This document shows positions 59,248 through 63,413 of a stretch of DNA of 64,000 bases, one piece after another. A program made the position numbers and the translations under genes. The notes under the pieces are model-generated. The model was not told where the DNA came from. It did no database searches and worked only from the letters and a program-made list of their open reading frames with translations. Origin of the DNA: Thiohalobacter sp. IOR34 (GTDB taxonomy: Bacteria; Pseudomonadota; Gammaproteobacteria; Thiohalobacterales; Thiohalobacteraceae); NCBI RefSeq assembly GCF_030406045.1, contig NZ_CP128988.1, forward strand, positions 655,438-719,437, given 5' to 3'. Each line of letters starts with the position of its first letter. The first letter of the stretch is position 1.

Positions 59248-61323
59248 TCAGGATTTCTCCACCATGCCCTGCAGCCAGTCGCCACGGTTCTCGATGACAT
59301 GGAACAGGGCGGCGACGACCTGCCGGTCGTACTTGCTGCCGGCCTCGGCCAGCAGGCGGTCGAGGGCCGACTCCACGTCGAGTCCCTCGCGGTAGGCGCG
59401 CGGACTGACCAGCGCCACGAAGGCGTTGGCCACCGCCAGGATGCGCGCGGTGAGCAGGATCTGTTCCTCCTTCAGCCCCTGTGGATAGCCGCTGCCGTCG
59501 ATGTGTTCCTGCTTCTGGGCGATGGTCTCCAGCACCGGACCCTCGAATTCCAGGCTGGAAAGGATGTCCAGGGCGTACTGCACATGCTGGCGCAGCCGGG
59601 CCTGTTCCTCCGCGCTCAGCGGGCCGGTCTTGGTGAGGATCGCCTTGGGCACGAAGATCTTGCCGACGTTGGCCAGGTTGGCGGCGAGTTCCAGGGCGCG
59701 CAGCCGTGGCTCGTCGAGCGCCATCTCGCGGCCGATGGCCGTGGCGACCAGGGCGGTGCGCGAGGAGTGGTCGGCCGACCAGGGGTCGTGTTTGTCGACG
59801 GCACGCATCAGGGCCTGGATCAGCTGCTGCAGCAGCCGCTCGCGCCTGCGCTCGGCGTTCTGCAGCTCGGTGACGTCGTGCAATACCACCAGCAGCGTCT
59901 GCGGGTGGCCGTCGATCTCGGTCAGCGGAATGAAGCGGCTGTGGAAGCAGCCGCTGTGGCTGCCGATGTCGAGCTGCAGCAGCGGTTCGTCCGTCTTGCC
60001 GGCGATGGCGGCCTCCAGCCGTCGGCTGGTGTCCGGCCCCAGCACGCTGCGCAGCGATTTGCCGCGGACCTCGGCGGCCTGCAGGCCCACCGCCTCGGCC
60101 AGCGGCCGGTTGGCGAACAGGAACAGCCCGGCCTCGTCGAGCAGGAATACGGGGTCGTGCAGGTTGTCGGTGATGGCATGCAGCAGGCGGGTGCGCGACT
60201 CCAGTCGCCGGGTCTTCTCCCCCAGCTCGCTGGCCAGGCGCCGGGCGCGGGTGCTGGTGCCATGGTACCAGGCGGCGGCCAGGGCGGCGCTGACGAAGAA
60301 CAGCGCCAGGAAGAAGACGCTCAGCAGGAAGCGGCGGTGCTGGCGGGATTCCTTCAGGGCCTGATCGGCATCCACGGTCTGCACCAGGTACCAGGGCGCG
60401 ACCTCCAGCCGGCGGCTGGTCATCAGCACGCGACGGCCCTGGTAGTCCAGGGCCTCGGCGAACTGGCCGGGCTGGCGCACGGCGATGGCGGCGGCCAGCC
60501 GTGGTGTGGACAGCGGCATGCGCCGGCGGGTGGCCGCGATGCTGTCCCCATCCTCGCTGAGATAGACCAGGCTGTCGCCCTCGACCCGGACCAGCAGGCT
60601 GCGCTCGCCGATCTTGGCCGCTCCGCCCCCGCCGAGCAGCGGGTAGAGTTCGTCGCGGACGCTGGTGAAGCCGACGACCACGCCGATCACTTCGGGTGTG
60701 CCCGCCGGCTGCAGGCCGGGGGCGTCGAACACCGGGGCCATGAAACCGATCACCGGTTCCTCCGCGGCATTCAGACGGATCGGCAACAGCATGTGCTGCC
60801 GCTTCTCGACCAGCCGGCGCAGCCGGTTGCGGTCCGCCGTCCGCAGCGTCGGAGTGCCGGCGGTGGCCAGCAGCAGCTCGCCGTCCGGCCGCAACAGGGC
60901 CAGGCCGCGGCTGGCGATCCGCTTGACGTTGGCGTGCAGTGCCTGCCCCGGCCGCTCCCGAAAGGCCCGGTACTGCGGCGCGCTGCCGAACAGGGCCTGC
61001 ACGATGCTGCGCTGGGAGAGCACGGTTTCCGGTTCCGCAGCCAGCTCGGCTGAGGTGAGGATGCGGGTGGCGAGCTGCAGCGAGGGGTTGCCGGCAAGGC
61101 TCTCGATCTGCTCGAACTGGCGATCGATCCAGCTCGTCAGGGCGTGGGCGCGGCTGTCGGCGACGGCCTCCAGCTGGCGGCGCCAGCCGTCCAGATCGCG
61201 CTGCCGTTCCAGTTCTACATAGGAGAGGATCAGCCAGACGCCGAGGGCGACCACCAGGGTCAGCAGGCCGGCGGCGATGAGCAGGGGGGGCGGGCTGGGC
61301 TTGCCGTTGGGGGCGGGTTGCAT
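59248..61323 (-). CDS. membrane receptor with periplasmic sensor, PAS and degenerate HD-GYP domain
   Basis: A 691-aa inner-membrane protein. TM1 about residues 14-36, a periplasmic Cache-like sensor (about 40-325), TM2 about 331-352, a coiled coil, PAS domain (about 380-488) and an HD-GYP-like domain (about 495-691). The HD dyad is replaced by A551-N552 (LANVGK), the HHE motif by K604-Q605-E606, and later Asp ligands by N633 and V636, while H519, H580 and GYP (612-614) remain. Phosphodiesterase activity is therefore unlikely; ligand binding is possible. It follows the LapG-like gene by 11 bp. Confidence 0.88.
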   Translation of the reverse strand: MQPAPNGKPSPPPLLIAAGLLTLVVALGVWLILSYVELERQRDLDGWRRQLEAVADSRAHALTSWIDRQFEQIESLAGNPSLQLATRILTSAELAAEPETVLSQRSIVQALFGSAPQYRAFRERPGQALHANVKRIASRGLALLRPDGELLLATAGTPTLRTADRNRLRRLVEKRQHMLLPIRLNAAEEPVIGFMAPVFDAPGLQPAGTPEVIGVVVGFTSVRDELYPLLGGGGAAKIGERSLLVRVEGDSLVYLSEDGDSIAATRRRMPLSTPRLAAAIAVRQPGQFAEALDYQGRRVLMTSRRLEVAPWYLVQTVDADQALKESRQHRRFLLSVFFLALFFVSAALAAAWYHGTSTRARRLASELGEKTRRLESRTRLLHAITDNLHDPVFLLDEAGLFLFANRPLAEAVGLQAAEVRGKSLRSVLGPDTSRRLEAAIAGKTDEPLLQLDIGSHSGCFHSRFIPLTEIDGHPQTLLVVLHDVTELQNAERRRERLLQQLIQALMRAVDKHDPWSADHSSRTALVATAIGREMALDEPRLRALELAANLANVGKIFVPKAILTKTGPLSAEEQARLRQHVQYALDILSSLEFEGPVLETIAQKQEHIDGSGYPQGLKEEQILLTARILAVANAFVALVSPRAYREGLDVESALDRLLAEAGSKYDRQVVAALFHVIENRGDWLQGMVEKS

Positions 61324-61334
61324 CGGTGGGCGGC

Positions 61335-61976
61335 TCAGGAGCTTGGCACGTGGATCCACCAGTGCGACTCGTTGATCGAGTAGACCGGGGCGTAGTGGAC
61401 GATCTGCCGATGCGGGATGACCTGGCGGATCTGGTTGTCGAGGATCAGGATGTCGTCGGCGAGATAGACGGCGAGCACCGCGTGGGGTACCTGCAGGTTG
61501 GTGTCCTGCAGCACCACGATGCGCATCGCCTCCGCGTCGAAACCCAGCCAGCGCAGCGAGAACAGCTTGGTGATGGCATAGTCCTCGCAATCGCCATTGT
61601 TGTAGAGGAACTCGCGCGGGATGGCCCAGTAGTCCGCCAGGCCGTAGTTGTCGATATCCAGCACGTAGGGCTTGCGGTTGGCGTAGTCGTTGACCCGTTT
61701 CAGCTGTTCGCGCAGCGGCAGTCCACGCAGGCTGTCGAGGAAGCGGTACCAGGCGCGCAGATGACAGCGGTTGAGGCGCTGTTCGCCGCAGTCCGCCTCC
61801 GGCAGGTCCTGGGTGATATGGCGTTCCAGGACGTCGAGCCACTGCCGGAAGGGCTGGACATTGCGCTGGCCGATCTCGCGGTAGCCGAACAGCGCTGGCG
61901 TGGCGCCGGCTGCCAGCAGAGGCAGCAGGCAGAGCGCAAGGCACAGGCCGAGTCGGGGGTAGGTGGCGCGCCGCAT
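61335..61976 (-). CDS. lapG: LapG-like periplasmic transglutaminase-like cysteine protease
   Basis: A 213-aa exported BTLCP-family protease. Signal peptide residues 1-25; catalytic C130 in NNGDCEDYAITK, H165 in VPHAVLAV and D180 in ILDNQ; DCED also resembles the LapG calcium site. LapG releases large adhesins from the outer membrane and is normally held by the c-di-GMP receptor LapD. Here the adjacent gene is an HD-GYP-type receptor instead. ATG at 61976. Confidence 0.88.
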   Translation of the reverse strand: MRRATYPRLGLCLALCLLPLLAAGATPALFGYREIGQRNVQPFRQWLDVLERHITQDLPEADCGEQRLNRCHLRAWYRFLDSLRGLPLREQLKRVNDYANRKPYVLDIDNYGLADYWAIPREFLYNNGDCEDYAITKLFSLRWLGFDAEAMRIVVLQDTNLQVPHAVLAVYLADDILILDNQIRQVIPHRQIVHYAPVYSINESHWWIHVPSS

Positions 61977-62402: not shown

Positions 62403-63413
62403 ATGAAAATGAAACTGCATGTTCTGGCTGCCGCCCTAGTGCTGACCACGACCGCTGTCACCGCCAGCCGTCCGGGCGACGACGAAGCGGATTCCGTCTA
62501 CCAATGGGGACGCTGGTCGGTGCTGGCGCCGGCGGCCGGTCTGCCGCAGGGGGTGCAGGCGCCGGGGCAGCTCCGGGTGAGGGGGGTCCGCGTCGGTGAG
62601 GCCGAGCAGCTCACGCCCAAGGTGCAGCCGCTCAGCCAGGCGACCAGCGGCGACGAGGATTCGTCGCCGGATCTGCCGCTCGCTCCGCAATCGCTGGGCT
62701 GCACGGCCGGGGCGCCCTGCGGTCTTGCCTCCCGCGCCGCGGGCAGAACGGGGGGCACGGCTGCCGGGACGGTGCTGAACGCCTTCCTGCTCGAGCAGGA
62801 TGGCACGGCAGGAACGGCCGCTTTCCGGCTGAATTCAGGGGCAGCGGACGAGGCCGCCTCGGTGAGCATGGCGGCGCGGCTGATCGCCGCCAGCCGGTTG
62901 CGCGCCGGTGGCAGCGACGGTGCGGCGAATTCGACCCTGTTTTCCAGTGACCTGACCCTGGCCGGCGACGGCAGTATCGCTCGCGCGGTTGGCTTCTGGG
63001 GGCATGACGACGGTACCGGTGGCATCGAGTCGGGCCGCTTTGCCTGGGGCATCGCCACCGGCCAGGCCGATCTGGACGCCCTGAACGCCGGCAACGTCAG
63101 TGCTGCCTTCAGCGGGGCGATGGCCGGCGATCCGACGACCCGGGTGGACATCACCGTGGACTTCGGTGCCGCCGCCTCCTGGAGCGGCAGCTGGAGTGGC
63201 GGTCACAGCTTCGGTGCCAGTGGCAGCCTGAGCGGGCCGAACCTGGTTGCCGACAGCTTCAGCAACGTCGACTCGGGGCGGGTCGAGGGCGTGCTGCTGG
63301 GGCCGGCCGCCGATCAGGCTGTGGCGGTGGGGGTCGATGTGCAGATCAGCGGCCAGGGCCAGTACACCGATGTCGGCCTGATTCCGCAGGTGGTCAGCGG
63401 CGGCGCCCTCTGA
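62403..63413 (+). CDS. exported Gly/Ala/Ser-rich protein of unknown function
   Basis: A 336-aa secreted protein. Signal peptide residues 1-22 (LHVLAAALVLTTTAVTAS). Then WGRWSVLAP, a low-complexity region with two Cys (C100, C106) and a beta-rich C-terminal half (AFWGHDDGTGGIESGRFAW..., then a Ser/Gly-rich strand repeat and VEGVLLGPAADQAVAVGVDVQI). Similar strand patterns occur in outer-membrane-anchored beta-barrel binding proteins. No PEP-CTERM tail. PAAG (43-46) and TAAG (119-122) resemble LapG cleavage sites. Confidence 0.6.
   Translation: MKMKLHVLAAALVLTTTAVTASRPGDDEADSVYQWGRWSVLAPAAGLPQGVQAPGQLRVRGVRVGEAEQLTPKVQPLSQATSGDEDSSPDLPLAPQSLGCTAGAPCGLASRAAGRTGGTAAGTVLNAFLLEQDGTAGTAAFRLNSGAADEAASVSMAARLIAASRLRAGGSDGAANSTLFSSDLTLAGDGSIARAVGFWGHDDGTGGIESGRFAWGIATGQADLDALNAGNVSAAFSGAMAGDPTTRVDITVDFGAAASWSGSWSGGHSFGASGSLSGPNLVADSFSNVDSGRVEGVLLGPAADQAVAVGVDVQISGQGQYTDVGLIPQVVSGGAL

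Follow-up and report, generated by a model that had tools for sequence, protein, structure and literature searches.

Lap-type control has so far been described for type I giant adhesins (PMC13090378) and for a type Vb adhesin of Pseudomonas aeruginosa (PMC4694147). In the stretch of 64,000 nucleotides from Thiohalobacter sp. IOR34 analysed here (the window), a lapG gene lies 11 bp upstream of a receptor gene on the same strand, and the predicted receptor ends in a degenerate HD-GYP domain (Table 1). The questions raised by this locus are what governs the protease and what the protease cuts.

Table 1. Coordinates of the features discussed, as positions in the window.
Feature	Coordinates	Strand	Remarks
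LapG/DvhG-type periplasmic cysteine protease (BTLCP, Peptidase_C93), 213 aa	61335..61976	-	ATG at 61976, stop ends 61335
DvhD-type receptor, 691 aa: TM, periplasmic dCache-like domain, TM, PAS, degenerate HD-GYP	59248..61323	-	ATG at 61323, stop ends 59248
Receptor PAS domain, residues 381-487	59863..60183	-	PAS E 2.7e-9, PAS_4 E 6e-10
Receptor degenerate HD-GYP domain, residues 504-669	59317..59814	-	HD_5 E 5.6e-43 (Pfam)
Putative Slam-exported cargo, 336 aa: signal peptide, motif, beta-rich C-terminal part	62403..63413	+	homologues lie downstream of a Slam-like gene in relatives
WGRWSVLAPAAG motif of the cargo	62505..62540	+	putative LapG cleavage site between two Ala (62532-62537)

A LapG-type protease gene is paired with a degenerate HD-GYP receptor gene

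The protease has a signal-peptide-like N-terminus and matches Peptidase_C93 with an E-value of 2.4e-17 (63.6 bits against a cut-off of 27), and its closest solved relatives are the LapG-type structures 4u65 (E 7e-20) and 4fgo (E 5e-19). The predicted catalytic triad comprises C130 (within GDCED), H165 (VPHAV) and D180 (LILDN), and the Asp and Glu residues that form the calcium site of LapG and DvhG are present on either side of the cysteine. An earlier reading, made from the sequence alone, had described a LapG-like protease with an intact Cys-His-Asp triad and a receptor gene 11 bp downstream on the same strand, and both statements held. Its description of the receptor as Cache-like, PAS and HD-GYP domains held in part: the PAS and HD-GYP domains are clear, but residues 47-314 gave only a weak Pfam match to dCache_1 (E 3e-4, below the cut-off). 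A Pfam search of the receptor found no LapD/MoxY periplasmic, HAMP, GGDEF or EAL domain, and PADLOC returned no match for it.

Within the HD-GYP domain, A551-N552 replace the HD dyad, K604-Q605-E606 replace HHE and AVAN633 replaces AVAD; GYP is retained. This pattern of loss and retention had also been read correctly. The loss of the metal ligands is fixed in more than 40 relatives, and an alignment of 11 relatives showed N552, N633 and the GYP triplet to be invariant and A551, K604 and Q605 to be nearly so. LapG-linked receptors across the loci collected carry AN/KQE/AN or close variants, and other HD-GYP proteins of the same genome (L003, L005, L006) have HD, HHE and the later Asp intact. 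An active phosphodiesterase was considered for the receptor and rejected, because all key ligands are lost and the loss is fixed in relatives.

The pairing of the two genes is equally persistent. LapG adjoins the receptor in relatives of this genome wherever the contig allows, and in the wider set of loci it is adjacent and co-directional for 48 of 68 receptors, with gaps mostly of 3-44 bp. A divergent LapG accompanies a further seven, and the remaining 13 receptors come from truncated contigs or from lineages without a LapG match. Conservation of the gene pair and of the lost ligands in relatives had been proposed as a check on the sequence-only reading, and both are conserved. Dozens of relatives have the pair together with these ligand losses, so chance does not explain it.

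The receptor resembles DvhD and keeps most of its c-di-GMP contacts

Among all solved structures, the best matches of the receptor were 9rc0 (E 1.5e-59) and 9rbz (E 2.1e-46), with the next-best HD-GYP structure (E 1.6e-27) far behind 9rc0. Both entries are fragments of D. vulgaris DvhD, 9rc0 covering PAS/HD-GYP and 9rbz HD-GYP; they were identified as such because every contact residue numbered in PMC13090378 falls on the matching residue of the aligned sequence. According to that 2026 paper, DvhD is a dCache-PAS-HD-GYP receptor that controls the LapG-like protease DvhG in a manner analogous to LapD. It has SQ in place of HD and Met-Asn in place of His-His, and it binds c-di-GMP with an effective Kd of ~99 nM, without hydrolysis (PMC13090378).

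Like DvhD, the receptor clade lacks HD, HH and the later Asp, and the segment AVANAF is common to the receptor and DvhD. In a tree of HD-GYP sequences, seven other HD-GYPs, most of them active-looking, split from the receptors with support of 100/100; DvhD fell on the receptor side, its exact place being unresolved on a long branch. As a separate observation, alphaproteobacterial PAS-HD-GYP proteins (L091-L100, for example L095:9578-11125) have lost the HD motif (MN) with no LapG found nearby, and the L095 open reading frame has an N-terminal match to an aquaporin-type MIP domain.

The residues that contact c-di-GMP in DvhD were then compared with their counterparts. R650, Y621, L577 and P567 of DvhD, which correspond to R642, Y613, L569 and P559 of the receptor, are invariant in the alignment (A1). 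The counterpart of Y652 (position 644) is Tyr or Trp, and that of Y523 is usually aromatic or His. In the receptor itself K582 is replaced by Q574 and M646 by L638, and neither K520 nor R569, which belong to the DvhD bridging site, is kept. That binding residues are kept is seen directly in the alignment. Because most of the DvhD contact residues are among them, the receptor is likely to bind c-di-GMP, an inference for which there are no binding or hydrolysis data.

Taken with the published DvhD-DvhG system, these comparisons support the claim that a dead HD-GYP domain serves LapG as an equivalent of LapD, with nucleotide binding and the interaction with LapG both inferred. The claim was right in outline and not new in kind, because DvhD has already been published for other bacteria.

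A type I adhesin system was not found in the genome

An intact lapD beside a second lapG had been named as a result that would refute the sequence-only reading. The genome has a single LapG copy, and no LapD periplasmic domain was found in it; the latter search was uncontrolled, in that no control genome gave a match either. A search for a LapA-type adhesin and its type I secretion genes had also been suggested, and neither a LapA retention module nor an LssB-type ABC transporter was found over cut-off in the genome. The best ABC match sits within an apparent msbA-lpxK-kdsB cluster. Elsewhere, the LapG-receptor pair at L102:2265-13586, and also at L039, lies near genes for a TolC-type outer-membrane efflux protein, an HlyD/M50 protein and a cadherin-repeat protein, an arrangement that resembles type I loci and includes the same receptor type.

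A Slam-like exporter gene lies beside the pair in relatives

The flanks of relatives contain a conserved gene pair on the far side of LapG; one gene encodes a protein with TPR and beta-barrel parts, the other a secreted protein. The neighbourhood scan was extended to 61 further loci. Where the LapG-receptor pair is co-directional and the contig leaves room upstream, a divergent gene for the barrel protein, hereafter called Slam-like, lies within 1.2 kb of the pair in 42 of 47 loci, and there it is usually followed by the secreted-protein gene. Five loci depart from this: the window, L102, which is a type I secretion-like locus, L079, in which sequence is masked, and two second pairs of Sulfuricella type, which share a Slam gene 2.2 kb away.

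Of 31 members of the Slam-like family, 28 matched the TPR_Slam profile and 16 the SlipAM profile. An AlphaFold2 model (pLDDT 91.7) has helices over residues 13-111 followed by 14 strands, and a Foldseek search with it ranked no structural match better than generic outer-membrane barrels. The identity assigned to the family rests on profiles and topology. On these grounds the linked barrel gene is of the Slam, or type XI secretion (T11SS), outer-membrane kind, Slam being the translocon by which type XI secretion exports TbpB-like surface proteins (PMC9090332); translocation of the cargo by it is inferred.

The genome studied here has a Slam-like gene (G000:C1:1954748-1955992) that is not linked to the LapG-receptor pair. 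This copy passes the SlipAM cut-off (23.4 bits against 22) and stays under the cut-off of TPR_Slam. It stands alone beside a two-ORF IS-type transposase with HTH and DDE_3 domains (L105:8597-10992, equivalent to G000:C1:1953597-1955992). Because a DDE_3 transposase adjoins it, the gene has apparently moved from the LapG-receptor-cargo locus, on evidence that is no more than suggestive.

Other arrangements were also observed. In Sulfuricella-type loci (L046:2160-12055, L090:2288-12055), two LapG-receptor pairs flank one Slam-like gene and one cargo gene. The distant receptors at L083, L085, L086, L080, L081, L084 and L089 have an altered GYP (GRP, GTP or GKP), LapG divergent and not co-directional, and no Slam.

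The secreted protein carries a motif that fits the LapG cleavage consensus

The cargo gene of the window is divergent from lapG, and its WGRWSVLAPAAG motif has a single exact match in the genome. Across the cargo family the motif reads WG[RP]W..LxPAA[G/A/S], and an alignment of 26 members showed its S, W, G, W, P, A and A columns to be invariant or nearly invariant. Among 32 non-redundant cargo copies, chosen by WG[RP]W and not by PAA, Ala-Ala is found at a fixed place in 30 and the full [T/A/P]AAG in 20. The published cleavage consensus of LapG and DvhG is [T/A/P]AAG, cut between the alanines (PMC13090378), and the PAAG of the cargo fits it. While the motif itself is plain in the alignment, cleavage at it is inferred. 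The motif lies directly after the signal peptide or after a short Cys-containing N-terminal stretch. It lacks the DP and the helix described for optimal LapG sites, and some LapG-associated cargos have PLAG, PASG, PSAA or PAGG in place of PAAG.

The cargo family is otherwise highly variable, with a barrel-like C-terminus in some members and a short proline-rich tail in others; some proteins encoded downstream of Slam are short, proline-rich and without a barrel. The cargo of the window gave no direct match to TbpB-like or Slam-lipoprotein models, and its homologues gave weak ones (slam_lipo 3.6e-4, TbpB_B_D 0.0024). Its AlphaFold2 model is poor (pLDDT 49), and the fold is not established. At L031:13836-14597, in a Thiohalobacter relative, a secreted protein with a PEP-CTERM-like C-terminus is encoded beside a short cargo. 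Both neighbours of the pair, the Slam-type exporter and the secreted protein with PAAG, had escaped the sequence-only reading.

The motif, LapG and Slam co-occur across genomes

In a sample of 370 gammaproteobacterial genomes, LapG was present in 68 and the Slam-like family in 15; 14 of the latter have LapG, in 13 cases within 3 kb. The motif profile (E < 1e-4) matched once each in 12 genomes, spanning five families, and all of these have LapG and Slam. The hypergeometric chance of such co-occurrence is 6e-10 with LapG and 4e-20 with Slam, shared ancestry being ignored. Because PAA was present in the sequences that seeded the motif profile, the search favours PAA-bearing copies.

Three Slam genomes lack the motif. 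In G044, which has no LapG match, the Slam-like gene is followed by a gene for a FecR-domain protein with WGPW and no Ala pair (L122:8233-10393); a search for further LapG-free Slam genomes around it returned G044 alone. In G165 a Slam-like gene and a gene for a WGHW protein without PAA lie beside canonical LapG-LapD genes (L123:5982-10392), the receptor being a true LapD (LapD_MoxY_N E 8.6e-33, with HAMP, GGDEF and EAL domains). G356 has WGPW with PLAG. Since WG.W is kept without the Ala pair in both G044 and G165, it seems to serve a separate function. The Ala pair goes with DvhD-LapG loci, though not without exception, and G165 shows an independent swap of receptor type, with LapD in place of DvhD at an otherwise similar Slam locus.

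Discussion

Lost ligands, gene neighbourhood and co-occurrence of motif and LapG are all established by the comparisons above. The reading favoured here, with moderate confidence, is that the pair is a gammaproteobacterial DvhG-DvhD module whose LapG cleaves a Slam-exported cargo under c-di-GMP control; cleavage, interaction and binding are all inferred, and the proposal leans on the published DvhD mechanism and LapG consensus. At high c-di-GMP the dead HD-GYP domain would bind the nucleotide and signal through the PAS stalk and the membrane helices, so that the periplasmic dCache domain restrains LapG; a drop in c-di-GMP would free the protease. This direction of control is likewise an inference. 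The most likely substrate would be the protein of the divergent gene (62403-63413) and not a type I giant adhesin, with export proceeding via the Slam-like (type XI) outer-membrane translocon. Freed LapG is predicted to cut WG[RP]W..LxPAAG between the alanines, shortly after the signal peptide or after a short N-terminal domain. On the model of LapA, an N-terminal element would stay behind in the periplasm or in Slam and cleavage would free the exported part from it, an outcome of retention and release that is inferred. A bolder reading, in which Slam cargo is cut at the WG.W..PAAG site by a c-di-GMP-controlled LapG whose receptor is of DvhD type, or is LapD in one lineage or more, could at present go either way.

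The main alternative to surface release as the outcome of cleavage, and a possible one, is that LapG removes an N-terminal element from the cargo as a maturation step, either ahead of export or in its course, in which case low c-di-GMP would permit secretion. In favour of this, many cargos have the motif just 10-20 residues past the signal peptide and show no folded domain that is an obvious candidate for retention. Against it, cleavage in the Lap and Dvh systems releases an exported protein (PMC13090378), and other cargos have a Cys-containing, helical-looking N-terminal stretch before the motif that may be a retention element.

Two further alternatives are unlikely. In the first, this is an ordinary DvhDG system whose LapA-type T1SS adhesin is encoded elsewhere in the genome, the Slam neighbour being incidental. 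The substrates of LapG/DvhG studied with T1SS have all been adhesins of this sort (PMC13090378), and TolC, HlyD/M50 and cadherin-repeat proteins are encoded near the pair at L039 and L102. However, the genome yielded no retention module or over-cut-off transporter of the required kinds, the apparent msbA-lpxK-kdsB cluster claims its best ABC match, and adjacency to Slam at 42 of 47 loci is not incidental. In the second, the motif, PAA included, is a Slam-targeting or folding element and LapG acts on another target. WG.W without the Ala pair in G044 and G165 does point to a LapG-independent role for the first half of the motif, but the P-A-A half matches the LapG consensus, LapG is present in 12 of 12 motif-bearing genomes, and the sole Slam genome without a LapG match has WGPW without PAA. 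Finally, a receptor that binds no nucleotide and instead signals to LapG the presence of a ligand in the periplasm or at the PAS domain is very unlikely: dCache and PAS domains are usually sensory and the DvhD bridging-site residues K520 and R569 have no conserved counterparts here, but canonical-site R650, Y621 and L577 and an aromatic residue at Y652 of DvhD are kept clade-wide.

To return to the favoured module, its closest known counterpart is DvhD-DvhG of D. vulgaris, reported to have been reconstituted in a 2024 PNAS study (cited in PMC13090378). It likewise has an adjacent LapG-like protease and a dCache-PAS-HD-GYP receptor without the metal ligands, the dCache domain being only weakly matched in the receptor here, and gives the strongest sequence match to the receptor over PAS and HD-GYP. 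The D. vulgaris operon, however, contains T1SS and giant adhesins, whereas a Slam-like protein and a small secreted protein are found in the neighbourhood here, and DvhG has a TM anchor where the Thiohalobacter LapG has a signal-peptide-like N-terminus. LapD-LapG-LapA of Pseudomonas fluorescens has in common the protease family, the triad, the calcium motif and a dead c-di-GMP enzyme domain as receptor; that receptor is LapD/MoxY-HAMP-GGDEF-EAL, whereas here it is HD-GYP with a dCache-like domain, and no LapA retention module was found. Precedent for a LapG substrate outside type I secretion is provided by the type Vb adhesin CdrA/CdrB of P. aeruginosa (PMC4694147), with two-partner secretion and LapD in place of Slam and DvhD.

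Type XI secretion (Slam/DUF560 with TbpB-like cargo; PMC8406197, PMC9090332, PMC12282271) uses the same TPR and 14-strand barrel, and some of the cargo here resembles Slam-dependent proteins with a C-terminal beta-barrel. Unlike in those systems, the linked Slam family is divergent, the cargo is non-lipidated with an N-terminal WG.W-PAA motif, and the genes are linked to those for LapG and a c-di-GMP receptor. Neither the T11SS gene-neighbourhood papers searched nor the rest of the limited literature covered was found to connect LapG or c-di-GMP with Slam or type XI secretion. What was known is the DvhD-LapG pair; what is new is a Slam-type exporter and a PAA-bearing secreted protein as its partner, where the linkage is shown and cleavage is inferred.

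DvhD-type receptors are present in many members of the Gammaproteobacteria, a class in which LapD is the textbook receptor; how far this overlaps with the published class-level distribution is unknown. If the proposed control is correct, DvhD and LapD would be exchanged around a constant protease-exporter set, with a cleavage site predicted to the level of the residue. Type XI secretion would gain a regulator, none being mentioned in the papers searched, and the type XI (Slam) pathway would become a third secretion route under inside-out proteolysis controlled by a second messenger.
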